This document shows, in pieces, positions 3,814 to 55,902 of a stretch of DNA of 64,000 nucleotides. How positions within the stretch are numbered: position 1 is the first letter of the stretch; every line of letters begins with the position of its first letter. Below the pieces are notes generated by a model. It searched no databases, was not told the origin of the DNA, and was given only the letters and a program-made list of their open reading frames with translations. The DNA is from Lantana camara (taxonomy: Eukaryota; Streptophyta; Magnoliopsida; Lamiales; Verbenaceae). The stretch lies in the NCBI GenBank assembly GCA_037501455.1, contig CM074858.1, positions 79,582,501-79,646,500 on the forward strand. Direction: 5' to 3'. The position numbers and the translations under genes were made by a program.

Positions 3814-4389
3814 GTGAAACAAGGGGAGAAAAAGGAAAAACCCTCTAAGGCTGTGCAAGAGGCAATTGATAAGGTCCAAATAATCAGACAACGGATGAAA
3901 GCAGCCCAGGACCGACAGAAAAGCTATGCCGATCACCGAAGGAAAGATCTTAAGTTTGAGGTTGGTGATAGGGTATTCTTGAAAGCCTCACCTCGTAAGG
4001 GATTCTCGAGGATTGGAAAAGGAGGAAAATTGAGTCCTCGGTATTTAGGACCGTATGAGATTCTTAAGAAAATTGGAGATACGGCCTACCGTTTGGACCT
4101 ACCGCCGAGTCTGACCGGAATCCATAATGTATTTCATGTTTGTCAACTTCGGAAATATTATCCGGACGAATCCGAGATCCTACCTGTTGAGGAAGTGGAA
4201 CTGGAGCCTAACCTTACCTTCGTTCAGAAACCGGTTAGAATTTTGGATCCGAAATTGCAAGAATTAAGAAATCGGCGTATCCCACTAGTTAAAGTCTTAT
4301 GGAGAAGTGATAAAACGGAAGAGGCTACGTGGGAGACGGAGGATAAGATGAAAAGATTTCATCCCGAATTGTTTCCGGGCGATCAATGA
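3814..4389 (+). pseudogene. pol: Element A integrase C-terminus with chromodomain-like tail
   Basis: This 191-codon open stretch is the last part of Pol. It carries the GPY/F-type module (KLSPRYLGPYEILKKIGD, AYRLDLPPSLTGIHNVFHV) that follows the integrase core in Ty3 elements, and ends with a chromodomain-like block (ILDPKLQELRNRRIPLVKVL, then EATWETEDKMKRFHPELF). In chromoviruses this tail reads chromatin marks and steers integration into heterochromatin, which fits the nested accumulation seen here. The stop at 4387-4389 is the natural end of Pol: the polypurine tract and LTR start about 20-35 bases later. The upstream part of the polyprotein is broken. Confidence 0.88.
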
Positions 4390-5689: not shown

Positions 5690-8447
5690 TGTAGCACACT
5701 GCACGTGAGGCACCACATCCCCCGCACTATGGTCCAACCCGAGCAACGACATGGAGAGTCCGCACCCGGATCAAACGGTAGCGAACGGGAGACAAAGAAA
5801 ACAAACACCTAAGCTAGGCGGAACGTAGACCCTGTCAAGCAAAACCAACCAACAAAGCAAAGTGCAGCGGAAGACTAAAGATCAAACACATGCATTGGCC
5901 ACGGGCCTATAGAAATTAAACACACGGCTCACAAATAGACTTGGGCTCTTCAGGCCTATTTTTAACAAATTACAAAACCCATCAAGGTCAATTCAAAATA
6001 ACAAATGCATAAACATCCATATACGTATCTTACATACCGATTCAAATTTAAATAAAGCAAATGCAAATGTAGACTAATCTAACCCAGACCGACCGACTCA
6101 AAAGACTTGACTCAACTCCGCCTAGCTCCAAACTCCAAAGCAGACCTGCACACTAAAAGATTGGGGAGGGAGAGGGTCAGTCTACAACTCGACTAAGTGA
6201 GGGGCCTACCCACACACACCACATATACATATTGAGCAAAGCACAAATTAACAAAAGACTATGAACCGGGATAAGGTTTTTCATACCAAAGTCATTTCGT
6301 AGCAAACTTATACTTATACATAATAAACAGAGCAAGCTTAACGAGATCACAATAATATAAGAGAAGCTCCTATCCCGTTTCATAATCATCATAACAAAAC
6401 AAATCTAATACCCGGCGAGTACGGGTCTCCAACCTTACTTCCAAATCCTAACACACGAATCAAACGGAAAACAAACAAATATCACAAACAATCCCACCTC
6501 AACAACCATGGTGTTCGGGAGTCAAACCCTCTTCACCAAATTACCAATACATACGGGGTAGCTAACCCACGATATGCCTTCCCCGGTTATCCACCGAGGG
6601 CTCAAGATACCACGCCTTCCCAACCTCCAAGAGTCGCACGTGAATATCTCAAATGGAATTATGCCCAGGTCAAACCCAACGACCTTTGTCGTACCGGGGC
6701 TCCCAGCCCATAATTCTGGGGTCCAACAAACCAAAACAAACCAAACTCCCATCTTTCATGGATAAACTCGCTACAAAACACACTTAACAAAACATAACCA
6801 AAACTTACGTACCTTATCGGAGCATACCATACCTTGCCACTTAGCATATGCTATAAACGTACCTCTCCGTGTCATCCTAATCCGTAGCTAGTATGAAGAC
6901 ACACGGTTTGGAGCATAGCCTCGTTACAAAACATTTTCCAGCTTACATACGCTCGTATACATAGTTCGAAAAACCTTTAATCAAATGACAAAGTCATATA
7001 CATATTGTATAAGCACATATCTTCTGTATAAATAATATAATATATTCGCATGCGGGCTTGAAAACGAGCGCATAGGGTTGTAGGTCACATTAACTAAAAG
7101 AAACAAACCTAAACCTCACCTTACACCGAAGAAACCAAAACCGGATAAATAATTCACCCCGGAATCAGAACGGACCACGAAACACCACCCCCGGGTGTAC
7201 CTGAACCAATTGAAGACAAAACACAATGCTTAGACTCCAAATGAACCACATTGACGCACGACTTATGTTTACGCACTTAGAGAATGCAAGTAGGTAGGCA
7301 AAGTTCATATGAAAATCAAATTCATGCAAACGTGTGTGTCTCATAATGTAATGGAGTCATAATCATGCTTAGGAAACACTCATGTATCCAATTAATCCAA
7401 TTAAGAGCAAACAAGATGCTCATGATCGCATACTAACCAATTCATGCATATGGAAGGCATACAAACGAATACGGAATGCAAAACTCATAAATAACATGCA
7501 TAAATAAAACAAATATGAACACATAAGCATGTTATAACAAGTTAGGAACAAGCTCGGGGTCGGAAAGGTACAAGAAAAGTGGAAGAAGAACACGAAAATT
7601 GGTTTTGAGCGAAATTGGGCAAAAGTCGGAAATTTTCCAAAATGCGTAGGTCGTAGGAAAACTGAAATATCTTGAGTTTGACAAGTGGGAATCGAGTTTT
7701 TCTTCTTGGGTATGAAACTAGACATATAGACCTTTAAAATTATATAAGGCTCGAATTCTAGTTCAAAGTGAATGAGGAAATGGCGTAGGATCAAAGTTGG
7801 GTGATCTCAGATATTCGGGAAAATAGCGACACCAAATTAAAATGATTATATCTCACAATCTAGAAAAGATATTGAGTTGATTCCAATTGGAGCTTGTAGT
7901 ACACTTCATAAGGTTTCCAACAAATTACCAATCAGGTCATTATGAGTTCGTATGAGGGAGAAACGGGTGTTTGAAAAATACACTAAAAGTAGAAACGGGC
8001 GTTTGGAATCTCTCGGGTGAAAACAGAAAGTGCCCAAATGGGCGTTTGGGAATTACACTGAGGCACGAAACGGGCTTTTGGGTATCGTCTGCTAGAAAAA
8101 TGGTGGAACAGTAACAATGGCGGAAATGGGACCAAACCCCAAGCTCACACGAACCCATGCAACACCGAATCACACAAAATTCATACAACGAAGCATACAT
8201 AACACGTAAATCACATATTTGCATATAAAAGCTCCCGAAACAAACCCGAACACATAAAACTCGAACCAAACACAATTCATCATCTTCTCCAACTAGCACT
8301 TAGGCAATGAATCAAGACACGAAAAAGGTATAGAACTAAAGCACGTAATGAAAGGGTCACAAATCTTACCTTGGGTCGTTGATCGGATGGTCGGATCGTC
8401 GGAAGCTTGAGCCAAAGCTTAATGGCCAAAAGGGGAATGTTTGCTTC
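5690..8447 (-). repeat. Solo LTR B, left part (3' end of a minus-strand LTR)
   Basis: It begins TGTAGCACACTG, the reverse complement of an LTR 3' end. Read on the minus strand it holds the same modules as the other LTRs: donor-like AAG|GTAAGA at 8370, mini-exon 7200-7120, and the complementary pair GCTAGGCGGA (5813-5822) / TCCGCCTAGC (6117-6126). Short inverted repeats with centre GGGC or GGGT lie at 7961-8050. Open reading frames here are short and unlike known proteins. It is interrupted at 8447 by element C. Confidence 0.88.
7961..8075 (-). repeat. Short inverted-repeat cluster in LTR B
   Basis: On the plus strand: AAAC/GGGT/GTTT at 7961-7972, AAAC/GGGC/GTTT at 7993-8004, CCCAAAT/GGGC/GTTTGGG at 8033-8050 (one T.G pair), and a decayed copy AAACGGGCTTTT near 8067. 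The pattern is complementary arms around a 4-base GC-rich centre, as in the other LTR families of this window, but with different arms. Confidence 0.75.
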
Positions 8448-10644
8448 TGTAGCATCCCGATCGTTCGGATTTCCAGGTACGCCGTAACGAGAGGGTTTTA
8501 TGCGTATTTAAATTATTTAATTACGTATTTGAATGTTCTTTTAATTCTTTTATGATTATTTGAATTTATATGAAATTAATTGTTTATAATTATGAACTTT
8601 GAATTTTAAACGTTAAAGTTTGTATACTCGTAATTTGCTCGTTATGTGCCGGAATTCAATTCCGATTTTTGTGAAATTTTGGTATGCGTGATATATGTGA
8701 GTTATGAATGTGTTTGCATGCTCGTTTTAAGTTTTCGTGTTCGTTTGTCGAGGTTTTAAACCTTTGGTATTTGACGAGGGACATGAGGGCCTAACTAGTT
8801 TTAGTGCGCCTCTTGTTCCGGAGGCCATAACTTGAGCTAGGGAATTCGGATTCGAATTCCGGAAAATGTGTTGGACTCATAACGAAGAGATGAAGCCAAG
8901 GAACCTGATTTGGTATTTTTCTAAGTCCATTTGGACCCTCGTTTTTCACCCGGAACGAACAGCTTGCGCCTAAGCCACCATCTTTGACTAGTTCACTTGT
9001 GGGGCCAATTTAACCATGCTCAAGCCTTTAACCTTGGTTTATATGATATTAACTCAGCCCTATCCCTTCCCTACCCTTTCATTTCGTCCAACACACCCAC
9101 AAGACGAGGAAGAGCAGTTGATCCATGGAGAAAAGAGAAGAGAAGAAGAAGCCCTTTCCATGTCTTGAGATTTTGAAGACAAATCTTCTCCATACTTCTT
9201 CATATCTTAAAGGTACGTATATTTATGTATTCTCCTCTCTTCTATGCTTCATTTTATTCTTGAAATTCATGAAATGCATCAGATTTTAATAAGGGGATTG
9301 AGGCTTGCATGAATAGTTAGGGTTAGACTTCATTTTTGAATCCTTGTCTTAGCTTGAGTTTCATGGAGGTTTGATGCATGTTAACTGATTATTTGAGCTT
9401 CTTAACCTCAATATATGCCTTATACTTCATATTATTTGTGTAACATATGATCTACCATTGTTAACTTGAAGAAAATCTTGAGTTTTTAAGCATGAAACTG
9501 GAAGTTCGAACTGCTGCTGTCAGCTCCTTTTTAACCGAACTGCTGTCATGTTTTTGAGTTTTCTTTGATGAATTCTTACATCCAATTTCGTGTGTTAATG
9601 CTTGGTTATGTGTTACACATGTTGCTTTATAAATATGCTCGGTTTTTGCCTTGAAAACCTTGGTTTATATGATGAGTTTTGAGCTTAAAAACTGCTGCAA
9701 AAATCTGCTCGCACGTATGAACTGCTGTCAGGATTTTTTGGTTTGGTTTGATGATGTCTTGTGCTTATTTTCGTGTGACATTGCATGGACATGAAGTATA
9801 TGAGTTTTTCTACATGTTAGCTAAGTTTCCTTAAGCATTTATGCCCCTTTTCATCTGTATATATGAGTTAGAATATGACTTGTTTTCATGCCTTTTGTTG
9901 CATCAGTTTTGTGTGGTTGTTTTGGGGTGCTAAAGCTGATCATATGAACTTATTATGCCCCATTTTGGATACTTAACTGATAGTACATGATGTTTGGATG
10001 ATTTTCTCTTAAGATCCTTTGATGAAATTATGAGGTTTTGAGCCCCAAACCTAGGTTAGAAATCTGCTCCCCTGTTTTGGAACTGTTGTGACGTTTTGTG
10101 CCTTGTTACTTGAGTTAATGGCTTCCAATTCATGTGCATTTTGATGGAGACATGGTATACTAATTGATTTACATGTTAGCCCTGTTGTTTCAAGCTTTTA
10201 GATCCATTTTCAGCTCCTAAATCGAAACATGAGGCCTATTTGTATGCTGTGTACGAACTGATCTGCTGCTGTTGCATTTTGTGATTAGTCGGTGGTTCTA
10301 ATGTGCTCCAATTCGTGTCAATATGCATATACATGGAGTATTTGAGTAGCTTAGCATGTTAGCATTTAGTTCCCAAGCTTTTAACTCCTAACTCAGCCCC
10401 TAAGTTGATGATCATGGCATGAATGTATCGATTTCTCAATTTTGGTTCTAATTGCATTGCTTGTTTGATGAACCTTTTTGGATGCATTCTTCAATCTCTT
10501 TATGTGATTCTTTGGTATGTATTTGATGCTTGTTTTATGTGTTAATGCTTGAGTAGTCCCTCTCTTTCAGCCCTTGATTTGCTCTTGGTTTTCTTCCCCT
10601 TTTCAATCGCAGTTGTCAGTCCTTTCCGCCCTTTTCGCCTCTGT

Positions 10645-10788
10645 ACCGAGACACCCCCGTGTCTCGGTTTGTTCTTCTGGAGTGACACGGGCGTGTCACC
10701 CCCCCTTTTTGTAGCTTTGTTTCCCTCCTGTACTGAGACACGGGGGTGTCTCAGTTTAGGCTTCTGGGATGACACGGGCGTGTCATTC
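10645..10788 (+). repeat. Four-hairpin cluster in 5' LTR of element C
   Basis: Four inverted repeats lie within about 145 bp. ACCGAGACAC/CCCC/GTGTCTCGGT at 10645-10668 has 10-bp arms. GTGACAC/GGGC/GTGTCAC lies at 10682-10699. ACTGAGACAC/GGGG/GTGTCTCAGT at 10732-10755 has 10-bp arms. ATGACAC/GGGC/GTGTCAT lies at 10769-10786. Every centre is four G/C bases. The same cluster is at 17162-17303 in the 3' LTR, where one centre is CGCC but its arms are unchanged. Confidence 0.9.
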
Positions 10789-11263
10789 CCCTCGGTTAGA
10801 TTTTTAAGTGTAACTCTTTTTCGTTCCCTTGCTTCTCTTGTCCCGTTTGTGGCCTATATGCATTATTAGCTTAATGTATTATGTGTTAACTTGTGTAATA
10901 TGAATTTAAGATTTGATTTATGTGCTCGTTTTTGAATTATGGCTTCATATGTGCGATATGCTCCTTTAACGGGCGTTTATGACCTTCTGTCTCGTTTATA
11001 TGCCTTGCATGATCAATCGTTGCTCTTTATATGACATTAATGCTTTGATAACATGTTGTATGATATGATATGTGTGTTATATGGAACTTGTGAATTCGTT
11101 TAGTAGTAATTTTTGAGATTTATGGTTTAATATGAACGTGTATGCATTATGTGCCAATTTGTTTAGATTGATAAGCATCACTCGCATTCATATGCATTTG
11201 CCGAGCGTCAATACGGTTCATTTTGAGTCTAAGTTTGCCTCTTGCTCTTTGCTTTGCTCTTAG

Positions 11264-11333
11264 GTTCGTTCCGATGTGGGGAAGTGGTTCGTTTGACTCC
11301 TTTTTGTCCGTTTTGTTCGGATTGGTCGTCCAA
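11264..11333 (+). other. Candidate LTR mini-exon (element C, 5' LTR)
   Basis: A pyrimidine-rich tract ending CTCTTAG precedes this 70-bp segment and GTGAGG follows it. The 3' LTR copy (17791-17860) is also 70 bp and has the stronger donor CCAG|GTGAGG. The same arrangement, 65-90 bp long, recurs in LTRs A, B, D, E, F and H. It has no coding potential that I can see. Splicing is inferred from sequence only. Confidence 0.6.
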
Positions 11334-12609
11334 GTGAGGTTTATTTCTTTTAGTTTTTCGACCTACAACCTTGTGTGTTTTTGAAACCCGCATGCGAGTA
11401 TTATATATGTATATTTATGGTAAATATGTGTGAGATATGTATGTTAAGGGCTTGTCCCATTTGTTATACGACTTTGAAACGGATTTGTATACGTATAGAA
11501 ACTATTTTCCGCTTGTTTTGAAAACTTTGGTAAGGGTGTGTGTGTTAGCTTTGTTCGTTTGTATCGGATTCAAGCAAGTCTCTGATTTTCTGTTGGTTTT
11601 GATCTGTTGGGCCACGGAGAGTGGAATGGCAACTCGGGACGACCATGGGGTCGCTGAGCTCTCCCATCAACACTTTCCATTGAGAGTTTCGCCCGACCTT
11701 AGGAGGTTGAGGAAGGGCGGTGCTCTTGAGCCGGCGTAGGCAAACGTCGAAGGATTCAAGGAAGTAATTAAGCCTTGTATCGTTGGTACTGAGTTCGTAA
11801 GCTCGTTAGATAGTTCGGGCTTTACACCCTACTATCACCCGGTGTGAAGAATGGTTTATGATTTTTGTTTGATTTGTTCGTTTTGATTCAGAGTTAGGGG
11901 TTTACTTTTGTGTGAACCGTGAAACGAGATTGGCCTTGTGATTAACTAAAATTTGGCATTTTGGCACTTGCCCCTTTTGTTTCCTTTTCAACCTATACAT
12001 CTAATATCACGGGAAACGTTTTAGTTTGTAAAACCCACTCTCGGTTCAAGGTTCTTTACTTTTGATACGTGTTTTGCTTTATACGTATTAGTGTGAGTGT
12101 GTTAGCCCCCTCACCAGTCTCTAGGACTGACCCTCGTTATTTCTATCTTTTTCCCCCTTTGATTTGAGGTTGCAGGTACCCATGTTGTGGGAGTTGGAGC
12201 TAGGCGGTTGTCTTTGAGTCTTGGTTTTGGAGAGCTTGAGTCTCATGCATTGTATCTCGGTTATTTGACGCAATTTGTTAGTTTCGAAATATGTATTAAT
12301 TTGCTACTTAGTTGTGTCCTGGGATTCAGTTTTTATATTTGCTTGGGTGTCTAAAATTTGTATAAGTAATATGTGGAGAACAAGATATGATTTGTACTTT
12401 CATGTTATAAGTTTTTATCTATTGGCTTCCGTGATTTTGTCTATTGCGTGCTCTGAGTAGGGTCTAGACCGCCTAGCTTAGGTTGGATTTTTGTTTCTCA
12501 CCCGTTCGCCATGGCTTGATGCGTGGACGGAGACTTAATTTCGTTTCACGTGTTGGGTTATGGTGCGGGGGATGTGGCGCCCTTCGTTCCGGGGTGTTAC
12601 ATCCTTAAG

Positions 12610-12622
12610 TGGTATCAGAGCT
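12610..12622 (+). other. Primer-binding site of element C
   Basis: TGGTATCAGAGCT, complementary to the 3' end of initiator tRNA-Met, lies 8 bases after the LTR end (spacer TCCTTAAG). It primes minus-strand synthesis. Confidence 0.9.
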
Positions 12623-14030
12623 CTAGGTTGCAAAACCGGAGCTCTCGTGTCGTGTTGGGTTTGTCTAGGTCGTTCGGCTTAGGATTTTGTGTTTGTTGGC
12701 ATTCACTACATAACTTATGTAACTTACTTGATATTATTTGATATTATTTGTATTAATAGTTCACATGAACATGCACTAGAAACCCCGCATGCATCGATAG
12801 CTTCTTGGAATTGTATTTTATTCCAGGATACTCCTTCGACATAAACGAGTGTTACCAGGAAAAGGACAAGGGAGACAGGTATATTCGGGCTATAAGGGGT
12901 TTAGAGATTTTTATCTTTCGAAGCGGTTTGAAATGGGGATATCAAGGCCAAGTTCTAGGTGATCAAGAGAATGGAATTGAGATTTGAGGAGCTCGAGAAT
13001 AATTCCTGTGAAGAAGTTCTATTCGAGAACTTTGTACAACTACATCCCTTCCGAGTTCGATGATAGAAATATTTCAACTAGAAGATTGGGAGAAGGTGGA
13101 TGATTTCATATAAGGGCTTGAAAGACAGGGTACCTTCGAGTACTATCCTAGGGTCGGAGTTATTTGTAAGTAAGAAGGCATGGAATTCGATCAAATAGTC
13201 AAATTCCAAGAATGCGTACACATGATCCGAGAATGCCAAATATATGGGGCTACGAAGGAATGGATAAATAATGGATTGAGCCTTCCACACTACTCATGTG
13301 AAGAAAAGATCGATTTGGGGTTAGAAGATCAACCAAGGAATCCAAACTTCAAGAAATTCTTAGGAGGATTCAAGATACCAATAACGTCAAGAAAAGAGAG
13401 ATTTCAATGCCGAATGGAAGGATCAAATTAAGAGGGATTAACAAATTGTTTCAAGCCCCGCTGGACGGGAGAATACTTTAATATTAAATAATTGGAAGAC
13501 AAGGCGAGAAACCAAGAGACAAGAGAAATTTTTGAAAATTTAAGACTTCAAAGTTGCCGAGTATAAGAAGATTCAGTTACCGAAGATGGATAGATTTTTA
13601 CGTCTCCTTACCGGAAGCAATTTAATATATACATTGTAGAGACTCGAATTACATGGAATGAAGAAACTCAAGAATCTCATGAGGCTACCAATATCAAACA
13701 AGGAGAGATTCCAATACCAAAGGTGATAGGAGGACTCATTTATGGAGGAATCGGAGGCATGATGAAAGTTAATCGAACAATAAGAAGTTGAGGTCTTCAA
13801 GGAAATGCCATGACTTCAAGATCCCGGTTCAAGCACAAGGTGATCCTCGTGGAAAACAAGAAGATGGCACCACACTCAACGCTACTCCTATGGTGAACGG
13901 TACATAAAGCATTCATGGCATCCCATTGCATACATGTTTTATTATCGGGGAAACCCACGTGCTTACTGCTTTATTCCTTGTTCTTCGGTGGTTCTTGATT
14001 ACAATTGTTATGTAATTGTTTTCCTTCTTG

Positions 14031-14236
14031 TTCTTGTTCATTGTGTGTTTCTTTCCCTTTGTGACTCTTGTTTGTAATGTGCATCCTTCCCTTCTCAGTT
14101 TTGTTCGTTATGTGTTTCTTTTCCTTTCTAGCTCTTGCTTGGAGTGTGCTTCATTTTTTCTTCTTAGTTTTGCTTGTTGTGCATTTCTTTCCCTTCTTAG
14201 TTCTTGCTCGTCGTGTGCTTTATTTTCCTTTTTGTG
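14031..14236 (+). repeat. Degenerate ~34-bp pyrimidine-rich tandem array in element C
   Basis: About six units of roughly 33-36 bp with the pattern TTGTT(C/G)(A/G)TTGTGTG, then TTCTTTCCCTTCT(C/T)AG. They account for the small hydrophobic open frames at 14016-14300 and 14068-14331, which are not genes. The array sits in the same relative place as the hairpin array of element H. Confidence 0.65.
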
Positions 14237-14949
14237 GTACCTCTCTTTTGGAGAGAGTTTGGTGGTGCGGAGTGTCCGAGAGTGTTTTGGTGAGTTGTGA
14301 GGGTCGAGCTGCTTTTGGTCGACTTGTCTGAAGGTGTTTTGTTCTCGTTGATGTTGGGTATTGCTTTTAGGAGGTCCGTCAGGGACTCAACGATATTTTC
14401 GGGGATAGATTGAAGGCTAACCCGTTGATATTCCTCTTAGAAGAACCGAGTATTGCCTCAGAGTAAGAGGTACGGTTTTGAGTGAGAGGAGGCGGTTGAA
14501 GAGAGTTACTCACGGTATTGGCTTTTGCCTAACCGGAGGTACAAATGGCTACCTTGTTTCCAACCGAGGCATAAAGGAAGGCCTTTGTTGTGTGTTGCTC
14601 GTAGAAGAACGGTAGCCTACGCCTTAAAGAGTGCAAGGTCACGAGTTAATCCCACTGAGGGTTGAAGTTGTTCAGAGTTTTAGGAAAACTGGTGGTTATG
14701 GCATAAGAAAGACGTTATGGACTTTGTGTAGTAATGTCTATGTGCCATAGGTTGAGAATTCTCCAACTACTCCCGAATCTTTATTTGGGAAGTAGGGGCA
14801 AACGACTAGGACTTTGAGTCCGGTTCGCCATTTAAGGAGATAGTGTCTTGAGAAGTATAGGATCAGAGTGGCGCAGCGGAAGTCTGGAGTTGGGCTTGAC
14901 TTCGGAGCCGTTCAAGATTCTCCTTAGGACCTGAGGACAAGTCCTTTTG

Positions 14950-14962
14950 AAGGAGGGGAGTT
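14950..14962 (+). other. Polypurine tract of element C
   Basis: AAGGAGGGGAGTT immediately precedes the 3' LTR start TGTAGCATCCCG at 14963. Confidence 0.85.
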
Positions 14963-17900
14963 TGTAGCATCCCGATCGTTTGGATTTCCAGGTACGCCGT
15001 GATGAGAGGGTTTTATGCGTATTTAAATTATTTAATTACGTATTTGAATGTTATTTTAATGCTTTTAGGATTATTTGAATTTATATGAAATTAATTGTTT
15101 ATAATTATGAACTTTGAATTTTAAACGTTTAAGTTTGTATGCTCGTAATTTCCTCGTTATGTGCCGGAATTCAATTCCGATTTTTGTGAAATTTTGGTAT
15201 GCGTGATATATGTGAGTTATGAATGTGTTTGCATGCTCGTTTTAGGTTTTCGTGTTCGTTTGTCGAGGTTTTAAACCTTTGTTATTTGACGAGGGACATG
15301 AGGGCCTAACTAGTTTTAGCGCGCCTCTTGTTCCGGAGGCCATAACTTGAGCTAGGGAATTCAGATTCGAATTCTGGAAGATGTGTTGGACTCGTAACGA
15401 AGAGATGAAGCCAAGGAACCTGATTTGGTATTTTTCTAAGCACATTTGGACCCTTGTTTTGTGCCCGGAACAAACAGCTTTCGCCTAAGCCAACATCTTT
15501 GACTAGTCTTTCACTTGTGGGGCCAATTTAACCATGCTCAAGCCTTTAACCTTGGTTTATATGATATTAACTCAGCCCTATCCCTTCCCTACCCTTTCAT
15601 TTCGTCCAACACACCCACAAGACGAGGAAGAGCAGCTGATCCATGGAGAAAAGAGAAGAGAAGAAGAAGCCCTTTCCATGTCTTGAGATTTTGAAGACAA
15701 ATCTTCTCCATACTTCTTCATATCTTAAAGGTAAGTATATTATGTATTCTCCTCTCTTCTATGCTTCATTTTATCCTTGAAATTCATGAAATGCATAAGA
15801 TTTTAATAAGGGGATGGAGGCTTGCATGAATAGTTAGGGTTAGACTTCATTTTTGAATCCTTGTCTTAGCTTGAGTTTCATGGAGGTTTGATGCATGTTA
15901 ACTGATTATTTGAGCTTCTTAACCTCAATATATGACTTCTACTTCATGTTATTTGTGTAACATATGATCTACCATTGATAACTTGAAGAAAATCTTGAGT
16001 TTTTAAGCATGAAACTGGAAGTTCGAACTGCTACTGTCAGCTCCTTTTTAACCGAACTGCTGTCATGTGTTTGAGTTTTCTTTGATGAATTCTTACATCC
16101 AATTTCGTGTGTTAATGCTTGGTTATGTGTTACACATGTTGCTTTATAAATATGCTCGGTTTTTGCCTTGAAAACCTTGGTTTATATGATGAGTTTTGAG
16201 CTTAAAAACTACTGGAAAATTCTGCTCGCCCGTATGAACTGCTGTCAGGATTTTTTGGTTTGATTTGATGATCTCTTGTGCTTATTTTCGTGTGAAATTG
16301 CATGGACATGAAGTATATGAGTTGTTCTACATGTTAGCTAAATTTCCTTAAGCTTTTATGCCCCTTTTCAGCTGTATATATTAGTTAGAATATGACTTGT
16401 TTTCATGCCTTTCTTGCATCAGTTTTGTGTGGCTGTTTTGGGGTGCTAAAGCTGATCATATGAACTTATTATGCTCCATTTTGGATACTTAACTGATAGT
16501 ACATGATGTTTGGATGATTTTCTCTTAAGATCCTTTGATGAAATTATGAGTTTTTGAGCCCCAAACCTAGGTTAGAAATCTGCTCCCCTATTTTGGAACT
16601 GCGGTGACGTTTTTGTGCCTTGTTGCTTTAGTTAATGGCTTCCAATTCATGTGAATTTTCATGGAGACGTGGTATACTAATTGCTTTACATGTTAGCCCT
16701 GTTCTTTCAAGCTTTTAGATCTATTTTCAGCTCCTAAATCGAAACATGAGGCCTATTTGTATGCTGTGTGCGAACTGATCTGCTGCTGTTGCATTTTGTG
16801 ATTAGTCGGTGGTTCTAATGTGTTCCAATTCGTGTCAATTTGCATATAAATGGAGTATTTGAGTAGTTTAGCATGTTAGCATTTAGTTCCCAAGCTTTTA
16901 ACTCCTACCTCAGCCCCTAAGTTGATGATCATGGCATGAATGTATCGATTTCTCAATATTGGTTCTAATTGCATTACTTGTTTGATGAACCTTGTTGGAT
17001 GCATTCTTGAATCTCTTTGTGTGATTCTTTGGTATGTATTTGATGCTTGTTTTATGTGTTAATGCTTGAGTAGTCCCTCTCTTTCAGCCCTTGATTTTCT
17101 CTTTGTTTTCTTCCCGTTTTCAACCGAAGCTGTCCGCCCTTTCCGCTCTTTTTGCCTCTGTACCGAGACACCGCCGTGTCTCGGTTTGTTCTTCTGGAGT
17201 GACACGGGCGTGTCACCCCCCCTTATTGTAGCTTTGTTTCCCTCCTGTACTGAGACACGGGGGTGTCTCAGTTTAGGCTTCTGGGATGACACGGGCGTGT
17301 CATTCCCCTCGGTTAGATTTTTAAGTGTAACTCTTTTCCGTTCCCTTGCTTTTCATTGCTTTCTCTTATCCCGTTTGTGGCCTATATGCATTATTATCTT
17401 AATGTATTATGTGTTAACTTGTGTAATATGAATTTATGATTTGATTTATGTGCTCATTTTCGAATTATGGCTTCATATGTGCGATATGCTCCTTTAACGT
17501 GCGTTTATGACCTTCTGTCTCGTTTATATGCCTTGCATGATCAATCGTTGCTCTTTATATGCTATTAATGATTTGATAACATGTTGTATGATATGATATG
17601 TGTGTTATATGGAACTTTTGAATTCGTTTAGTATGATTTTTGAGATTTATGGTTTAATATGAACGTGTATGCATTATGTGCCAATTTGTTAAGATTGATA
17701 AGCATCACTCGCATTCATTTGCATTTGCCCAGCGTCAATACGGTTCATTTTGAGTCTAAGTTTGCCGCTTGCTCTTTTCTTTGCTCTTAGGTTCGTTCCG
17801 ATGTGAGGAAGTGGTTCGTTTGACTCCTTTTGGTCTGTTTTGTTCGGATTGGTCATCCAGGTGAGGTTTATTTCTTTTAGTTATTCGACCTACAACCTTG

Positions 17901-19127
17901 TGTGTTTTTGAAACCCACATGCGAGTATTATTTACGTATATTTATGGTAAATATGTGTGAGATATGTATGTTAAGGGCTTGTCTCATTTGTTATACGACT
18001 TTGAAACGGATTTGTATACGTATAGAAACTATTTTCCGCTTGTTTTGAAAACTTTGGTAAGGGTGCGTGTGTTAGCTTTGTTCGTTTGTATCGGATTCAA
18101 TTAAGTCTCCAATTTTCTGTTGGTTTTGATCTGTTGGGCCCCGGAGAGTGGCATGGCAACTCGGGACGACCATGGGGTCGTTGAGCTCTCCCATCAACAC
18201 TTTCCATTGAGAGTTTCGCCCGACCTTAGGAGGTTGAGGAAGGGCGGTGCTCTTGAGCCAGCGTGGCAAACGTCGAAGGATTCAAGGAAGTAATTAAGCC
18301 TTGTATCGTTGGTACTGAGTTCGTAAGCTCGTTAGATAGTTCGGGCCGTACACCCTACTATCACCCCGTGTGAAGGATGGTTTATGATTTCTGTTTGATT
18401 TGTTCGTTTTGATTCGGAGTTAGGGATTAACTTTTGTGTGAACCGTGAAACGAGATTGGCCTTGTGATTAACTAAAATTTGGCATTTTGGCACTTGCCCC
18501 TTTTGTTTCCTTTTCAACCTATACATCTAATATCAAGGGAAACGTTTTAGTTTGTAAAACCCACTCTCGGTTCAAGGTTCTTTACTTTTGATACGTGCTT
18601 TGCTTTATACTTATTAGTGTGAGTGTGTTATCCCCCTCACCAGTCTCTAGGACTGACCCTCGTTATTTCTATCTTTTTCCCCCTTTGATTTGAGGTTGCA
18701 GGTACCCGTTTTGTGGGAGTTGGAGCTAGGCGGTTGTCTTTGAGTCTTGGTTTTGGAGAGCTTAAGTCTCATGCATTGTATCTCGATTATTTTACGCATT
18801 TTGTTAGTTTCAAAATATGTATTAATTTGCTACTTAGTTCTGTCTTGGGATTCAGTTTTTATATTTGCTTTGGTGTCTAAAATTTGTATAAGTAATATGT
18901 GGAGAACAAGATATGATTTGTACTTGCATGTTATAAGTTTTTATCTATTGGCTTCCGTGATTTTGTCTATTGCGTGCTCTGAGTAGGGTCTAGACCGCCT
19001 AGCTTAGGTTGGATTTTTGTTTCTCACCCGTTCGCCATGGCTTGATGCGTGGACGGAGACTTAATTTCGTTTCACGTGTTGGGTTATGGTGCGGGGGATG
19101 TGGCGCCCTTCGCTCCGGGGTGTTACA
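14963..19127 (+). repeat. 3' LTR of element C
   Basis: Copy of 8448-12601 with the same modules: donor AAAG|GTAAGT at 15730/15731, hairpin cluster 17162-17303, mini-exon 17791-17860, and acceptor TTGCAG ending 18701. It ends GGGGTGTTACA at 19127, followed by TSD GCTTC. Confidence 0.92.
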
Positions 19128-19602: not shown

Positions 19603-19886
19603 TATTTGATGACCTAACTTATCTGAACTTGATGGGATAAAGGAGATCAGTTGTTGCTCTGTTTTTCGTGGTTTTTGCGCCTGTTTTGAACTGGTTTTTG
19701 CTGCTGTCAAACTGCTGCGTTTTCTTGCTTGTTGTTGTCAGTTTTAAGGCATTTAAGTGGCTTGGTCATGCTATATTGCTGCTGCATTTCATGCCCTGGG
19801 TTGCTGCCTTTTTGCTGCTGCATTTTCATGACAAAAAACTGGGGATTGCTTTGTGTGTTGCTGCTGCCTCGTTTCTGGACTGGATC

Positions 19887-20010
19887 TCCCCGGGCGGGGA
19901 AATTTTGGCTGTAAAAGAGCCTGACCGGGTAGTGCTGATGCAGAAACCTTCTGCATAAGACTCCCCGGGCGGGTAATTTTGTGAGCAAAATCTCCCCGGG
20001 CGGGGAGATT
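19887..20010 (+). repeat. Inverted-repeat cluster in LTR A
   Basis: Three units share the core CCCC/GGGC/GGGG. They are TCCCC/GGGC/GGGGA (19887-19900), CTCCCC/GGGC/GGGT (19961-19974, one arm shortened) and AATCTCCCC/GGGC/GGGGAGATT (19989-20010, 9-bp arms). Confidence 0.85.
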
Positions 20011-24188: not shown

Positions 24189-27100
24189 TGTAACGCCCCG
24201 ATTTTTTTCGGCCATACAAGTATGCCATAACGAGAGTGTTAAGTGCGTATTTAATTATTTATTTATGCTATTATTTTTTATTTAATCGTTTAAGTGCTTA
24301 TTTGAAATTATATGAAATAATTGTTAAGTGTTTTATCTGAACTTTGATACGTTTGTGTCCGTCTGCCCCTGAACTTGACCTGTATGTGCCCAAACTTGTT
24401 TTCGATTTTTGTGACTACGTGTTATGCATGAAATATGTGATTTATGAAGTCGTTTATATGCTCATTTCTTATTTTTTAGTTCGTTTGATACGGTTCTTAA
24501 ACCGTTTTATTTGTTAAGGGATTTGAGGGCCTAACTCGTTTTAGCGCACCTTGGGTTCCGGACGGTGTAACTTAAGCTCGGGAATTCAGATTCGAATTCC
24601 GAAAGTGGTGTTGGACTCGTAACAAAATTTGGGAGCTCTGAACCTAAACTTGTATTTTTCCAAGCCCGTTTAAACATTTGAAATTTGCCCGTACCATTAG
24701 CCTCGAGCGTGATTACCACCTTTTACGGTTTTTGCTATGACTCATTCGTTTCTTAACCAAATGACTTGATCCTTGATCCTAATTGACCATGGTTAGACCC
24801 TATCTCTCAATATCTTAACCCCAATCTCGAACTTAGCAAGAAAGAAAGGAGAAAGGGCTGCCAAACCGAGATCCAAGGGAGAAGAAAAAGGAAAGACCCG
24901 ATACTATTCACTCGTGGCACTTTTGAACTCGATTCTTTGTCATTTCTTCTCCAATTGAAGAGGTAAGCATATTTTCTTGTTCTCCACTCCCATTTTCTTC
25001 TTTTAAGCTATGATTTGCATGATTTCATGAAGAATTGAGCATGTATTGATGAAGAATATGAAAAGTAAGGGTTGAGTGAACTTTTGATGATTTCTTGCTA
25101 ATCTTTGATGTAATTCTTAGTTTGAAGCTAGATTTATGATCTACATGACTTCTTGATGTAATTTTGAGCATAAATTTCGTGATATTTTCTGGGAAATCGA
25201 ACCACCATGGCTGCACTTTTGAAGAACTTGAAGAACATGTGCTAATATGAACTCTTTTGCCTTCTTGCTTCTTGCCCTTCGTTTGTTGTTGTTTCCTTGC
25301 ATGAATTGGAGTGTTTTTTGGGTGCTTTGTTGTGGTTTAGCTGCTGCTTTATGGTCTTTCTTTCCTCCCCTGCTTTGGCCTTGTTTTGCTGCTGCTCGAG
25401 TAGGGGCGCGACCGCGATCACACCACTTTCTTTTAGCATCGTGGCCATGACGCTGCTGGGTTTTGGCCACTATAAGGGTGGTCGTCCATGACCATTTCCT
25501 TCCTCTTTGGTGTCACGGCCGCGACAACTTGGCAGTAGTTCTCTTGGAGTGGTTGTGCGGCCACGACTCCTTGTGCAAGTGGTGGCGTGGCCGCGACATG
25601 TTGTTGCTAAGTGTGCTTTGTTGTGTGTTTTGTTACATCTTATGTGTTCTGTTAGCTCTATTCTTCGTTTGTATGCTTAGTTAACTTCATGTATTGCATG
25701 TTATGTGCTTTACTTTGAATTTGTAATGTGATTTCGATGCAATTATACTCAATATGTGACATGATATGTTTTAAACGCTGTCGTAAGTGTATGCATGAAC
25801 TAATGCCTTGTTTATTCGATTTATATCATATCTCTTTACTCTTTTATGAGATGTATGCATTGTTAACATGTTATATGATGTGTTATGCTTGTTATGTGAA
25901 ATGTATTCGTTTGACATGAAATATGCTCGTTATGACTTCATATGAATTGATATGCCTTGAATGCTACCTTGTTGCATTTCAATCGTATCATTTGCATTCA
26001 TATGCATGTGCCGAACATCTAATTGGTTCATATTGAGTGTAAGGTGTCTCTTGTCACTTGTTTTGTTCAAGGGATCATCCCGTTGGTGACGAGGTGTTGC
26101 ATAGGCATTTGTTTGCTTCTTTTGCCCCGTTAAGTCTCGAAGGTGAGGTTTTTTTTCTTTTAGTTAAAGTGACCTACAACCCTACATGTTTTGAAGCCCG
26201 CATGCGAAATATGTATATTATATGATAAATACGTGCTTGATATGTATTTTGAGGGCTTGTCCCGCTTGTCACGAATCTTGAAAACGCTTTTATATGTATA
26301 TAAACTATGTTTGGATTTGTTTTGAAAAGTTTTGAAGTACGTCTTGAACTTGTAGCAAGATATGACCTTGAAAGATAGGTCACTTGACATGAACTTGTAC
26401 TTGATTTGATGGGCCCTGGAGATTTGTACGAAGGAGCCCCGAGACGGTGTCGGGCAATCCGGTTAACTCCTGAGAACGATCTCCACTTGATAGAACGAAG
26501 CCGGAACCCATTTGGAGATTAGTGGGGGATGGAGTCCTGGGGCGTGAGTGTCACGAAACTCATGACCCATACATACACGCTTGCTTAGATGGTTTAGGGT
26601 CGACTAGCCCTTCCATCACTAGAGTATGAGGTAGGATTGTTTTGATTTGATCTTGCTTCACTTGAACTTGTCTTGACACAAGGATCTTGGAGAAAACTCG
26701 TGCTCGTCGAGTGGTTTGTCTTGTCTTGAGGCTATGAAGCAGGGAATGGATTCTTAACTATTTAAAATTTGTTATTTTGGCCTTTGGCCCTTAACTTCTT
26801 TTAAATATATATATATATATATATATATCTATTATCACAGAAAACAATTTGGTATGCAAAAACCATCCCCGGTTCATGGATTATTACGATCTTGATACGT
26901 GCTTTACTCTATATTTATACTGGTGTGTATGTTAGCCCCCTCACCAGTCTCTAGGATTGACCCTCATTGTTTCTCTCTTTTTCACCCCTTATCTTTCAGT
27001 TGCAGGTGCAGGTTGTCGGTGCGAGCTAGGCGACGGTCTTGCTTTTATATCTTGGAGTCTTGTAGCTAGTCTCATGCGTCTCTTATATTTATTTTGTAAT

Positions 27101-29575: not shown

Positions 29576-30178
29576 CTGTGCAAAAGAGGGTGAAGTGAGA
29601 CTCAATAAGACCATATATGACGCTTTGTAATGAAATGAGTATGATATGATATGCATAAGAGATAATATTATGTGATGGAGACGTTCAAGTGTACGATTAA
29701 TGCCTTTAAGGCATATAAACAAGCAATTCATTCATTCAAGGAAGCGTTCAAATTCATTCAAGTTCATAATTTCACATTTCATATCAATTCAATCCAAGAA
29801 TTTCATATAACAATCAAAACACGTACTATTTCACGTTTACAATTAGAAAATAGACAAATGAAAATGTTTAAGTCATGATCGGAAATTAAATAATGCGAAA
29901 TAGATAACAATTAAATTCTGTAATTTAAATAAATTAAATAATACTTAATATATAAAATAAATATACATATATACGCATAAATATGCATGCAATTATATAT
30001 ATATATATAGCTACTTAACCATGCATGCAACATATATTTATATACATATACCTTCATGCATGCAAACATATATATGTATAAATATACCTGTAGCCCGTGC
30101 AAGACAAAATAAAGAATCAAAATAAAAAGGAAATGCATGAAGAAAATCAAAGCAGCAAAGAGCACTGAAACACCCAGG

Positions 30179-30325
30179 CGCGGCCGCGACACCTTTCTTC
30201 ACAAAACTAGCGCGGCCGTGACACCTTCCTTCACAAAACTGGCGCGGCCGTGACGCCATTACAGAAACGAAATGAGCATGCAGTCGCTGCCGCGACACAA
30301 AATGAACATGTAAGCTGCGCGGACG
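30179..30325 (-). repeat. GGCC-centred inverted-repeat cluster in LTR D
   Basis: CGCGGCCGCG at 30179-30188, two copies of GCGCGGCCGTGAC (near 30211 and 30243), GTCGC/TGCC/GCGAC at 30283-30296 and a decayed GCGCGGACGCG near 30317. The first three units are separated by near-identical spacers (CACCTTTCTTCACAAAACT-type), so this is a short tandem array. Confidence 0.8.
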
Positions 30326-31723
30326 CGATGCTGCTTAGCAGCAGAAAATAATGTAGCAAACAGGGTATGAACAACATGAAAACAGGGTAGCAACATGTCC
30401 AGACTTCATCAAACATCAAGCCAACAAATCAAGGTACAAAATACAGCAAAACTCAACAAGAAATCAGGCCCCAACAGCCCCAAAACGCAGCAGCAGCAAC
30501 ATGAAGGAAGAAGGGGAGGGGGGGGAGGGAGGGACTCCATTTTCATTCAAAATTCATTAATGGTAACTCATTTATTACTCAAACACCATATAATACAAGT
30601 CCATAGGGAAGAAAAGAGATTTCTTAGGATCAACTTTCATACATTAAACATAAAGGAATCATAAGGAAACAAGGATAATCAACGTATGAGCTAAAACCCT
30701 TACTATTCATCGTAAAATTCAATACACATTCAAATATCCACCAAAATTAGCAAATAAGCATTCATAAGAAAGAGCAGAAGATGCTTAACACATTCATGGA
30801 CTCACCTCTTGAATTTGTTGAAGGATGGACGAGATTTAAGCTCAAAATCTTCAAGGTTTGTAGAGTGGCGAAACTGGAACTGGAATGCAGAAGATTGGCT
30901 GAGTTTTTCCTCTTTTGTTAGAGTGTGGTTCGCTATGGGGTGAGTGAAAGATGATATATGGTTGACTTAGGCTTCCAAAAAGTCCAACCATGGTTAATTT
31001 GGTTAAATATGGTTAGATTTATGATTAAAATGATAAAATGTGGCAGTTTTACGGCCGATTCGTTTTTCGGTTGAATTTCGGGGTTTCAAATAGGCTTAGA
31101 AAAATATGAGGCTTAATTCATTGAGCCCAAATTTTCAATATGAGTCCAGGGAGGTTGACGGAACTCGATTCCGAGTTCCCGAGCTCAAGATATCACATAC
31201 GAAACCAAAGGTGCGCTAATTGTCAGTTAACCCCCGATTTGGTTCCAACACTCAAAATAAATTCGTTACCACGCCAAACGAGATCGAAAACATGAAACGA
31301 GCATATGGTCATGTTCATAACATATAAATCTACAACATACTAAAATTTCACGAAATTTCGATATCAAATCCTATAAGAACGAAGCGCGATTATAACACTC
31401 ATAAACAGTGCATTTACAAATTCATTGAATTCCATATTAAATAACAAAATTTAAATTTCATTTTTTTAAATAAAAAAAAAAAACGAAGTCAACGTTTTAA
31501 ATACAAATTTAATATTAATCAAATCAATGATATCATTATTTAACATTTAACATTAAACTATAAAATTTAAATATACTAACTTAACGAAAAAAATTTAAAA
31601 TAAAATAAAATAGTAACAATTATAATAAAATTAAATATATAAAACACTTATAAACAATTAATTCATGCAAATTGGTAAACACATACGTCATACCTGTACG
31701 ACGAAAATATCGGGGCATGACAA

Positions 31724-37789: not shown

Positions 37790-38168
37790 TGCTAGGGAGA
37801 TGTTAACTCTTCCTACTTGTGTGTTAGAGAGATGTTGGATTCTCTCTAATTATGTTATAGAAAGATGTTGGATTCTTTCTAAGTTCTGTGCACGAGAGAT
37901 GTTGGATTCTCTTGTACTTAGGTATTCGAGGGATGCTGGATTCCCTTGGATTTAGGGATTTGAGAAATGCCGGATTTTCTTAAACTAGAATGTTTAGGAG
38001 ATGTGGAATTTGTCAGACTTAGGTTGAGAGACGGGGTTCTCTCAATTCTGTGTTTGAGAGACGGGGTTCTCTCAATTATGTGCTTGAGAGACGGGGTTTC
38101 TCTCTTTTGTGTGTGCTGAGGGATGGGGTTCTCTCACTTGCGTGTTGAGAGATGGGATTCTCTCTTGT
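37790..38168 (+). repeat. Tandem array of ~13 hairpin units in element H interior
   Basis: Units of about 30-40 bp each form a short stem. Examples: AGGGAGA/TCTTCCT (37794), TTAGAGAGA/TCTCTCTAA (37824), TAGAAAGA/TCTTTCTA (37857), TGAGAAA/TTTCTTA (37961) and TTGAGAGA/TCTCTCAA (38024 and 38055). Loops are TGTTGGAT-like in the first half and CGGGGT-like in the second. Stem bases change in pairs between units, and mismatches are mostly G.T. Confidence 0.85.
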
Positions 38169-48259: not shown

Positions 48260-48481
48260 ACGGGAACGACCCTTCCCGTCCTAGTTCATTCTGGGAACGA
48301 CCGTTCCCACCCCTGACAGTTGGCGCACGAGAATGGGAAAGACCGTTCCCATTTTGGTCTGTGGCCGGAACGGCAGTTCCCAGCCTCAAAATTTTTTCCA
48401 AAACTTACAGACGCGTTGGATTGAATCGGGGAGCCGGGAACGACCCTTCCCATTTCCAGTGTCAACCGGAACGGCCGTTCC
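48260..48481 (+). repeat. Six-unit GGGAAC/GTTCCC palindrome array in LTR F
   Basis: Units: ACGGGAA/CGACCC/TTCCCGT (48260-48279); TGGGAAC/GACC/GTTCCCA (48292-48309); AATGGGAA/AGACCG/TTCCCATT (48332-48353); GGAAC/GGCA/GTTCC (48367-48380); GGGAA/CGACCC/TTCCC (48436-48451); GGAAC/GGCC/GTTCC (48468-48481). Flanking bases vary but stay complementary in the first three units. Confidence 0.9.
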
Positions 48482-48708
48482 CATCCTCCAGAGGGTTTTG
48501 TCAATTTTCTGCATAAAATGTAACTTTCCAAATCCGTTTCTAATGCCATAATTGATCGATACGTGTTATTATATGCTCATTTTATGCATGAATATGATCA
48601 TATCATTCCATAAATTGTCAATGCATGATATATTGTTCATGATCACGCCGTTCGTCCTAATTGGTACATTTGAGTCGTGTCTCACGGGCAATTATCTTTC
48701 TTGCACAG

Positions 48709-48935: not shown

Positions 48936-51836
48936 TGTAACACCCCGGAGCGAAGGGCACCATATCCCCCCGCACCATAGCCCATCAAAGGCCAAATGAA
49001 TCATAATTCATACAAAGCTTATACATAGTACCATACTTATACATATTTATACGTAGTACCGTATTTATAAATAGTACCAAAACTGGAAAGTAAAGATGTA
49101 AGGATGCAAAAGACTTCTCTAACAAACTCGAATGACTCAAAGTAAAAGACCACCGCCTAGCACGAACCGAACTCCTGCACCTGCAAACTCAAAAACAAAG
49201 GGGGAAAAGAAAACAACAAAGAGGGGTCAGTCCTAAAGACTGGTAAGGGGGCTAACACGTGCACCCATACATAAATATAGAGCATAGCATATACAAAACT
49301 TAGAGTGTTCATGAACCGGGCGTGGTTTTTGCAATCCAAATCATTTTAACATGTGATAACATATATATAGAAAGGTTTAGGGCCGAAGGCCAAAATCAAC
49401 CAATTTTACTAATTGAAAATCCGCTCCCGTTTCACGAACCATAGGCAAAAGCAAAACACACACACACACACCACTCGGCGAGTACGAGTGCACAACCATC
49501 CTCCTTCACAAGGTAAAACTCGAAAGTTAACACAAACGAAGCCATAAAGCAAACACATACACATACCTCTTCTCCAGGGATGGAAGGGTGGCCCTCTTTC
49601 ACATCCATCACGCTTATATCTCAGGGTCGTAAGTTTCATGACACTCACGCCCAAGGATTCTATCCCCCACTAACCTCCTAGTGGGTTTCGGGTTGATCCT
49701 ATCGATGTGGAGTCCATACTTGGGGAGTAACCCGATGCCGTCCCGGGGCTCCTTTGTACAAAACTACGGGGCCCAACACAAAAATGACACACACTTAACA
49801 CGCTTATAAAAAGGCTTATCTTTCAAAGCCAATCTCGCTGAAGCTTATCACACGCACACCAACCCTTTTTCAAAACAAAGGAACGAAAATATAGCTTACT
49901 TATATATAAAAGGATTTTTCAAACATTTCATAACAAGAGGGCCAATTCCCACAAAATACATATCAAACACGTATCTATATACATATACGTATACATAGGT
50001 CGCATGCGGGCTTAAAACATATTTAGGGTTGTAGGTCGTGATAACTAAAAGAAAGAAACCTCACCTTGCTGACCAAACCGACGAAACAAACTAAAACCCT
50101 TCTAAGAGACCACCTCTTCAACCACGGGGCAAACCCAAAAGCAAATCAAAGGTCACAAGACAAACTTAAACTCAAAATGAACCAAACAGACGCTCGACCT
50201 ATGAATATGGATGCTAATGATGCATAAAGATTGAGATGAAGTAGCACTTAGATCACATGAGTTCATATTAGATCATATCAAATCATAATTCACATATTTC
50301 ACGTCAAACAAGTTCACAAACTTCATGCAATACACATAACACATTATATAACACGTTAACAAATCATTCATATCATAAAAGAATCAAAGAGATATCGCAT
50401 GAGGCAAAGAAATAAGGTATTCAATCAAACACGTACGTTAGAGAGCAATTAGAGCATATCAAGTCATATATTGCACCTAAGAGCATCGAATTACTTCATA
50501 AATTGAATATAAGAGTCATAACATATCATATTATAACATAGAGCAATCACTCATGTGTTTGAATTACACAAACAAGGCAAAAGAATGCAAGCAAGCACCA
50601 AATGTAACATTTAAACATTCTTGCAAGTACGTCACATTTGCACTAATTAAACAAGGTCTTAAAATTAAAATAATTAATTAAACATATTATATACTAACAT
50701 ATTAACATATTGGGATCATAATTGGGGTGGCAGAAATCACTTAATAACACAAACGAAGCAAGAAACGAACAACGAAATGAAACTGGAAACGAAACAAACA
50801 TAACACACGAAACACACATCAAAAGAGAGGGGGTAACAAGGGTTAACAAACCCAAGGCAACCCCCATTAACAAGGTCAGGAGGCAAAGGGATCCAGCAGC
50901 TATGGGGGTAACGGGCGTTACCCCCACAAAGCTTCCACGGGTTAACGCCTGTTAACGGGCACAAATCATCATCTTCGTCGCGCAGCAGCAGCTCTGTTCC
51001 TTCATTTCCATGGTAGCAGCAACAAGGGCTCGCACACAGAAGCAAAGGCAGCCAAAAGACAAGGAAAAACTAGCAAAAAACATCACACAACAACCACCAA
51101 ACACGAACAAACAAAGGACCAACAAGAATGAAGGCAAGAGATGCACAAATTCAAACATTCTTCAAGCTTTTATGGAGTTCATCAGTGGTGGTTCGATTCT
51201 CAGCATATTTTCCAAAAAATTATTGCGTACAAATGAAACATATAAGTTATATAGATCACATAACACTTATCAATTCACGAAATGATCCAAGAAAATGGAA
51301 GAACTCATCAAATATATCATATGACCTAACTATTCATCACAACAACCATAACATGCTCTAATGTTCAACAACATGGACAAAATCATATGCAAAAGAAAGG
51401 TAAGAAGATGGAGATCACAAATATGTACTCACCTTTCAAATTTGAGGCGAATCGGAGGTCAACCGAACAAGAAACTCCAAGTTGTGAATAGTGCCAGCTC
51501 CTCTTCTCTTTTCTTCCCTTTTTCCTCTGGTTTTCTGCCCTTGCTTGCTTTCCTTGGCTGCTGGTCCGAAATGGGAGAGGTAGGGATGGATAGAGGGTTT
51601 AATAAGGGTCATATGGGCTCAAAAATGGCTTGACTCGGATAAGAAACGGGTCGGTTATTAGCAAAACGGGCGAGAGTGGCGAATCTGTCACACTAGTCGC
51701 GTTTCGGGCAAAAATCGGAGTATCAAACGGGCTTAGAAAAATTTGAGGCCAAGTTCTCTAGCTTTCATTCTTCTTTATGAGTCTTACGCCACTCCCAGAA
51801 TTCAAATTCGAATTCCTGATCTCAAGTTACGTTACA
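48936..51836 (-). repeat. Solo LTR L (minus strand), inserted in LTR F
   Basis: Left end TGTAACACCCCGG, right end GTTACGTTACA, TSD GTATT at 48931-48935 and 51837-51841. On the minus strand: donor AAAG|GTGAGT near 51452, palindromes at 50840-50956, and donor CAAG|GTGAGG at 50065/50064. The minus-strand 5' end reads TGTAACGTAACTTGAG; in related LTRs a ...TGTAACTTAAGCTCGGG motif lies roughly 350-400 bp inside the LTR, so the 5' part seems deleted. Confidence 0.87.
50840..50956 (-). repeat. Inverted-repeat cluster in solo LTR L
   Basis: Plus-strand reading: GGGTT/AACA/AACCC (50840-50853), GGGGGTAAC/GGGC/GTTACCCCC with 9-bp arms (50904-50925), and GTTAAC/GCCT/GTTAAC (50941-50956). Confidence 0.85.
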
Positions 51837-55826: not shown

Positions 55827-55902
55827 CACGTGTGAAACCACACGTGTGGCTCACGTGAGTGACACGTGTCATTGTGACACGTGTCACACACGTGTATAAA
55901 TA
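55827..55902 (+). promoter_or_regulatory. Six CACGTG (G-box) motifs before a TATA-like element
   Basis: CACGTG cores start at 55827, 55841, 55852, 55863, 55878 and 55889. TATAAATA is at 55895-55902. G-boxes of the ACACGTGT/ACGTG type are bound by plant bZIP and bHLH factors in abscisic-acid, light and stress responses. The 3' LTR carries the same set starting at 63342. Transcriptional activity is inferred. Confidence 0.75.

Follow-up and report, generated by a model that had tools for sequence, protein, structure and literature searches.

Clusters of palindromic boxes with family-specific words in long terminal repeats of chromovirus-like retrotransposons: predicted cis-regulatory DNA sites

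Several short hairpins lie close together at positions 10645 to 10788 of the window, the 64,000-nucleotide stretch of Lantana camara DNA analysed here. The first-pass annotation saw such clusters, each with arms of its own, in the middle of the long terminal repeats (LTRs) of seven element families. The locus therefore raises the question of what these boxes are, and why their two arms stay complementary while the words change. Our answer, to which we give a probability of about 0.47, is that they are predicted cis-regulatory LTR DNA boxes for dimeric, family-matched factors.

Element C and the box clusters of the window

The window is nested LTR-retrotransposon DNA of plant type, from a source genome of 1.27 Gb. 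Its coding pieces lie in neighbouring frames and comprise an aspartic protease, a reverse transcriptase, an RNase H and an SH3_Tf2-1 (Tf2-type SH3) domain, all above cut-off. A chromodomain match at 3799-4386 (E 0.00054) scored 20.3 bits, below the curated cut-off of 25.1. These pieces are Ty3/gypsy and chromovirus-like. Presumably the elements are also Tekay/Del-like, a clade label assigned solely from their very long LTRs.

Positions 10645-10786 fall inside the 5' LTR of a chromovirus-like element, C, which has the following parts.

8448..12601, forward strand: 5' LTR of element C, with TGTAGC...GTTACA ends
12602..14962, forward strand: internal region of element C, with the PBS-like TGGTATCAGAGC close to the LTR edge
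14963..19127, forward strand: 3' LTR of element C, 96% identical to the 5' LTR

The word GCTTC is found on both outer flanks, before the 8448-12601 LTR and after 19127. Element C is non-autonomous, since no open frame of more than 94 codons lies between its LTRs.

The hairpins themselves are real. The 5' LTR carries four perfect inverted repeats (10645-10668, 10682-10699, 10732-10755 and 10769-10786), and all four are present again in the second LTR at 17162-17303. Their words are GAGACAC/GTGTCTC and GTGACAC or ATGACAC, each with its complement. The clusters of the window, with 3-6 boxes each, are listed below.

10645..10786, forward strand: family C cluster, four palindromic boxes in two units of a ~87-bp tandem duplication
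17162..17303, forward strand: family C cluster of the second LTR, same boxes as at 10645..10786
19886..20010, forward strand: family A cluster, three TCTCCCC-GGGC-GGGGAGA boxes, two of them imperfect
48260..48482, forward strand: family F cluster, six GGGAAC/GTTCCC boxes with GACC, GGCC and related centres
50903..50956, reverse strand: family L cluster, GGGGGTAAC/GTTACCCCC and GTTAAC/GTTAAC boxes
25404..25597, forward strand: family D cluster, imperfect boxes around CGGCCG and CGACCG, weak in the window copy
30176..30330, reverse strand: family E cluster, imperfect GTCGC/GCGAC boxes, window copy not above chance
7959..8049, reverse strand: family B cluster, short AAAC/GTTT boxes, window copy not above chance

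Three of the six family F boxes have a C-C mismatch beside the centre. As the first-pass annotation had it, the clusters occupy one mid-LTR place. In A, B, C, D, E and L its distance to the LTR 3' end is ~1.7-2.4 kb by our coordinates; F is truncated.

We folded the sense strand of each cluster and compared it with 150 dinucleotide shuffles. The z values were -6.7 and -4.2 for the two family C clusters, -6.4 for A, -3.7 for F and -2.5 for L, with none of the 150 shuffles as low in any of these. Family D was weak (-2.2; 7 of 150 as low), and the window copies of B and E showed no folding excess (+0.25, 83 of 150, and +0.7, 118 of 150). When whole LTRs were scanned more coarsely, with 25 shuffles per scan window, the lowest z fell at the cluster in C, A, D, F and L but not in B and E. 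Thus the claim that seven families share the clusters holds clearly against shuffles for C, A, F and L and weakly for D; the window copies of B and E are at chance. The arms of class B (AAAC/GTTT) are perfect in another locus, L210 (4484-4678), and those of classes D and E (GTCGC/GCGAC) in L219, L220, L224, L232, L240, L241 and L247. Counting palindromes that have a CGNNCG core and arms of at least 5, the window holds 14, whereas 100 block shuffles give 1.4 (maximum 5); 10 of the 14 sit within clusters. Rfam at gathering scores gave no match within the window.

The window holds other palindromes and repeats as well. A second hairpin, CCCACTA-6 nt-TAGTGGG, is found at 36121-36140, 41321-41340 and 49666-49685, with a similar one at 51941-51960; unlike the mid-LTR boxes, it is a near-fixed word across different LTR families. 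Tandem GAGAGA-CGGGGT-TCTCTC hairpins, outside the mid-LTR place, occur at 38024-38164 and in L213 at 4286-4359; those of the window lie within a longer tandem-repeat stretch directly upstream of an LTR-like copy. The repeat pair 54672-56485 and 62187-64000 is 99.5% identical. Inside its two copies, dense palindrome runs at 55689-56268 and 63204-63783 combine AT-rich palindromes with CCACACGTGTG and GTGACACGTGTCA words, whose core is CACGTG. The segment 56931-57270, shortly after the 54672-56485 repeat, is very GC-rich and has several strong palindromes.

Kept symmetry and changing words across families

Downstream of the cluster, GACCTACAAC is common to B, C, D and L; CCCGCATGCGA is present too, in the first C LTR as well as in B, D and L. 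Made stricter, this conserved LTR block matches 1053 places in the source genome and none when reversed. The conserved block has no match in viral_contigs; a 14-mer scan of the same set returned at least 120 stretches, which we took as chance matches. From 100 block places among the matches listed (1053 in total), all on contig C1, we selected 40, mainly for differing spacer words, although a few words are present 2-3 times. Each sampled stretch runs from 1150 to 350 bases upstream of the block. We infer the lineage of these LTRs from the LTR blocks that they have in common.

The 40 stretches contained 70 GC-rich hairpins, compared with 16.5 +- 3.8 in 30 block shuffles (maximum 23). Two or more hairpins were present in 21 stretches (shuffles: mean 2.8, maximum 6), one in 12 and none in 7, with a range of 0-5 per stretch. 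The arm words include GACAC, GGACAC, ATCCAC, TGAAC, GGTAAC, CTAAC, GTCGC and TCCCC, each with its complement. We also took four extra 10-kb stretches, two next to the window and two from other places. Clusters are present in three of them, with the words GGAAC, AAAC, ATCCAC and C-type words, and the fourth, L212, has none. The general claim of palindrome clusters with many arm words is thus supported by an independent sample, and the clusters are real and widespread in the chromovirus-like LTRs of the source genome.

Two individual loci are worth recording. A C-type family at L213 6240-6430 (G000:C7:50006240-50006430) has multiplied recently; its best 40 copies are at least 98% identical, and many pairs lie ~6-7 kb apart. 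At the expected cluster place, L252 (G000:C1:88807160-88807960) holds an AT-rich inverted repeat with 37-base arms, perhaps a small inverted-repeat insertion.

So as not to select palindromes by their arms, we used all 80 CGNNCG cores present in the 40 stretches, with 1000 mixes of partners as the control. Counting outward from the core, flank positions 1-6 were complementary in 50, 46, 47, 48, 41 and 41 of the 80 cores. The mixed-partner means were 30.3, 28.7, 24.3, 26.8, 21.7 and 21.3, and the observed count exceeded the maximum of the 1000 mixes at each position. At positions 7 and 8 the complementarity faded to 26 and 13 (mixed 20.8 and 18.9). Reversed sequences showed no such excess in this test. 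With one core from each of the 36 regions holding one, the complementary fraction was still 0.49-0.64 vs 0.26-0.37. With one core per distinct left 6-mer (62 cores), 14.5 had five consecutive flanking pairs matched, compared with 0.85 in mixes, and 11 distinct words were fully paired. Other G/C-rich cores gave a weaker effect (5.6 of 80 vs 0.28), and the effect was small when all 118 CGNNCG cores of the window were counted. As a flank control, 154 cores taken at the ends of F and D loci were complementary at positions 1-6 in fractions of 0.31, 0.36, 0.38, 0.36, 0.50 and 0.38. These values are below those of the clusters without being flat, and the copies used are related.

The centre, described earlier as mostly 4 nt and GC-rich, can be refined to a 4-nt slot chiefly within three core types. 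Of the 43 boxes selected by the CGNNCG core and paired at 4 or more of 6 positions, CGGCCG occurs 20 times, CGGGCG/CGCCCG 6 and 7 times, and CGACCG/CGGTCG 4 and 3 times.

Changes can also be followed box by box, and related families whose clusters can be aligned do show paired changes. One box in L214, L221 and M (L211) has the outer words GGG...CCC, CAG...CTG and AAA...TTT around ATCCA...TGGAT, and L231 and L245 have GGG...CCC and AAG...CTT around TGAAC...GTTCA. Between C and L213, an A-T pair became C-G in box 3 and G-C in box 4; boxes 1 and 2 of L213 lost outer pairs. Outer pairs matched in the first sequence were unchanged in 173 cases, changed on one side in 53, and changed on both sides in 20 that stayed paired and 13 that did not; this count excludes 32 gapped boxes, and events recur in it because the comparisons are ordered. 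A looser count over 84 box comparisons gave 16 two-sided changes with both sides paired (9 of them not accounted for by transitions), 33 two-sided changes not both paired and 102 one-sided changes. Such modest compensation (16 vs 33 and 102) counts against reading the boxes as regulatory. The evidence for kept symmetry is strong across families and modest box by box.

Within families C (28 copies) and F (40 copies) we saw no covariation, and changes were mostly one-sided. At non-CpG sites of the F cluster, box stems were off the majority at 0.026, compared with 0.076 elsewhere in the cluster. Over 1.6 kb in 30 F copies the values were 0.045 in boxes and 0.096 elsewhere, and in the 28 C copies, again at non-CpG sites, they were 0.016 and 0.048. 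Boxes in these two families are thus 2-3 times less variable than their surroundings, a conservation that may be flattered because the copies are best hits to the cluster itself. It is not extreme either, as single boxes rank from the 5th to the 41st percentile of 20-nt windows (F and the 28-copy C set). In 21 copies of family D the cluster is more variable than the rest (0.23 vs 0.18), which also counts against the regulatory reading. The exact word is kept within families C and F. The idea of selection on a palindrome and not on a fixed word therefore survives in part: symmetry outlives the arm sequence (14.5 of 62 left words with five pairs vs 0.85), but within a family the word is fixed (F, 40 copies: 96 one-sided changed pairs, 6 two-sided, none compensatory).

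DNA dyads, RNA stems and other explanations

Among strong palindromes of the 40 stretches, 60 have an even asymmetric centre and 6 an odd one, compared with 8.0 and 6.6 in shuffles. The excess is confined to even spacing, a single phase. Along the LTR, the two orientations of an asymmetric centre are about equally frequent (CGCCCG 7, CGGGCG 6; CGACCG 4, CGGTCG 3). The 102 one-sided changes, a small and related sample, comprise 25 G-T, 27 A-C and 50 other; within boxes, 6 of 34 mismatches are G-T and 8 are A-C. The even-only excess of centres, the unbiased orientation and the lack of a G-T preference together favour recognition of symmetric double-stranded DNA. The wobble test is not decisive because decay after insertion could mask a G-T preference, and the fixed 4-nt slot could be inherited.

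These data bear on the main rival, an RNA packaging or dimerisation signal in which the hairpins act in genomic RNA and self-complementary, family-specific arms pair like RNAs. Retroviral packaging and dimerisation signals are clusters of stem-loops downstream of a donor site, and the strong RNA folds of C, A, F and L recall them. Splice-like words that flank the cluster in B, C, D and L point the same way: a donor-like AG|GT stands before it, an AAG|GTGAGG-type donor-like site comes after it, and a TGCAGGT acceptor-like site then follows, at these positions (donor-like / donor-like / acceptor-like).

15727 / 17859 / 18696: C, second LTR
24960 / 26140 / 27000: D
51436 / 50067 / 49186, reverse strand: L
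8372 / 7122 / 6151, reverse strand: B

The upstream donor-like site is altered in the first C LTR, B has two further donor-like words downstream, and the donor-like word is present in 4 of the 8 C loci that either extend far enough or match. The sampled stretches are also T-rich like plant introns (T 0.385, A 0.238). The long LTRs may contain leader introns, the first of them with the boxes; a cluster inside such an intron, if real, would be present in unspliced RNA only, as packaging signals are. Complementary loop pairs for kissing exist within C (CCCC, GGGG) and L213 (GGGC, GCCC); we set kissing loops aside, as L226 carries G-rich loops only. Unlike retroviral packaging stem-loops, the boxes have no wobble preference, no preferred loop orientation and even centres only. 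Odd-length loops are at background, the G-U-inclusive covariation expected of a packaging stem was not seen (G-T 25 vs A-C 27 of 102), and antisense strands fold as well as or better than sense in C, A, D and F. We therefore consider an RNA signal unlikely. Packaging or dimerisation, which the first-pass annotation had put forward, is not favoured; its other suggestion, a binding site with a co-evolving partner, does better if the site is taken as DNA and its partner is allowed to switch or co-evolve.

Transcribed hairpins might instead be small-RNA substrates targeted by host silencing, with the structure arising as a side effect of host recognition or of some other function. Small RNAs are in excess on the palindrome clusters of maize Sirevirus elements, as summarised in PMC10760457. 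A pure liability should vanish, yet the recently multiplied C-type family at L213 keeps its cluster, and we find silencing quite improbable as the explanation. Template switching during reverse transcription or replication could also make or mend palindromes, with tandem duplication, under no selection at all. Centres do flip between CCCC and GGGG or between GGGC and GCCC in homologous boxes, and the C cluster is a tandem duplication. This origin would leave unexplained the single LTR place, the even-only centres, the limited reach of the symmetry and the lower variation of C and F boxes; we find it improbable.

Proposed function and known systems

A typical box is a ~18-bp dyad: its 4-nt G/C-rich centre is usually closed by C-G, and the resulting 6-nt core is flanked on either side by some six complementary bases. 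Under the preferred reading, as regulatory DNA boxes, a protein dimer would dock on both halves of the double-stranded box, and several boxes per LTR would raise its occupancy. The docked protein would then activate the LTR or shield it from silencing. Between families both half-sites would change jointly, either because a family switches partner or because the partner co-evolves. The seven of 40 stretches with no hairpin and the weaker effect at cores other than CGNNCG count against this reading. So does the fit to factor sites, as we know of no single one that matches all box words. Among known plant sites, TGTCTC in C resembles an auxin-response site and GAA/TTC in F a heat-shock site; with NAC and bZIP sites also considered, at most single families seemed to match, and we rejected these candidates.

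Although the first-pass annotation knew no standard name for the feature, a close precedent is in print. Bousios et al. 2010 (PMC2829016) describe clustered palindromic repeated motifs in the LTRs of Sirevirus (Ty1/copia) elements, with one word per element and a CGG-CCG core in 12 of 13, and propose a regulatory role. There the motifs are Sirevirus-specific among the Ty1/copia elements compared. They number at least 8 per element with the 3' LTR counted, lie in the upper half of the LTR, 200-400 bp from its start, and precede a conserved TATA-type promoter, within CpG islands. Like these, our boxes are repeated palindromes with dyad symmetry clustered in LTRs, with one word per element, words that vary between elements, a CG-containing core and a short variable centre. 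They differ in host (Ty3/gypsy chromovirus-like vs Ty1/copia Sirevirus) and in number, with 3-6 boxes per cluster and eight over both LTRs of element C. They also differ in position, as the C cluster starts ~2.2 kb into a 4.15-kb LTR, and in core, with CGGCCG in 20 of 43 CGNNCG-selected boxes. Because superfamily, copy number, position and core differ, the boxes are not Sirevirus repeated motifs. We think that they may nevertheless work in the same way. Among the matches listed in full-text searches of the open-licence literature, at most 20 papers for each, we found no title or abstract on boxes of this kind in chromovirus LTRs.

A bolder and fairly unlikely version is that every chromovirus-like family has a private dyad 'operator' word, which a co-evolving trans-acting dimer, element-encoded or recruited, reads in double-stranded DNA for anti-silencing or self-recognition. 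The model here is the VANC targets of Arabidopsis VANDAL transposons, which PMC5735166 presents as short non-coding repeated words that evolve with a partner protein. In both cases words are repeated in non-coding DNA and differ between related families. VANDALs, in contrast, are DNA transposons, their motifs are tandem, in one orientation and non-palindromic, and they have a partner protein, whereas element C encodes none. If this version were true, families, the protein-less C included, would be told apart from their neighbours, and Ty3/gypsy LTRs would have a VANC-like recognition code.

More than 1000 LTRs in one genome, with words changing at one place, would offer a test system, and the question of what reads the boxes becomes testable with arm-swapped probes. 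The boxes look like a Ty3/gypsy counterpart of the Sirevirus palindromic boxes, presented in the 2010 paper as Sirevirus-specific among the Ty1/copia elements compared. Family-specific dyads across many Ty3/gypsy chromovirus-like families would suggest a common rule for how the control regions of plant LTRs are built.
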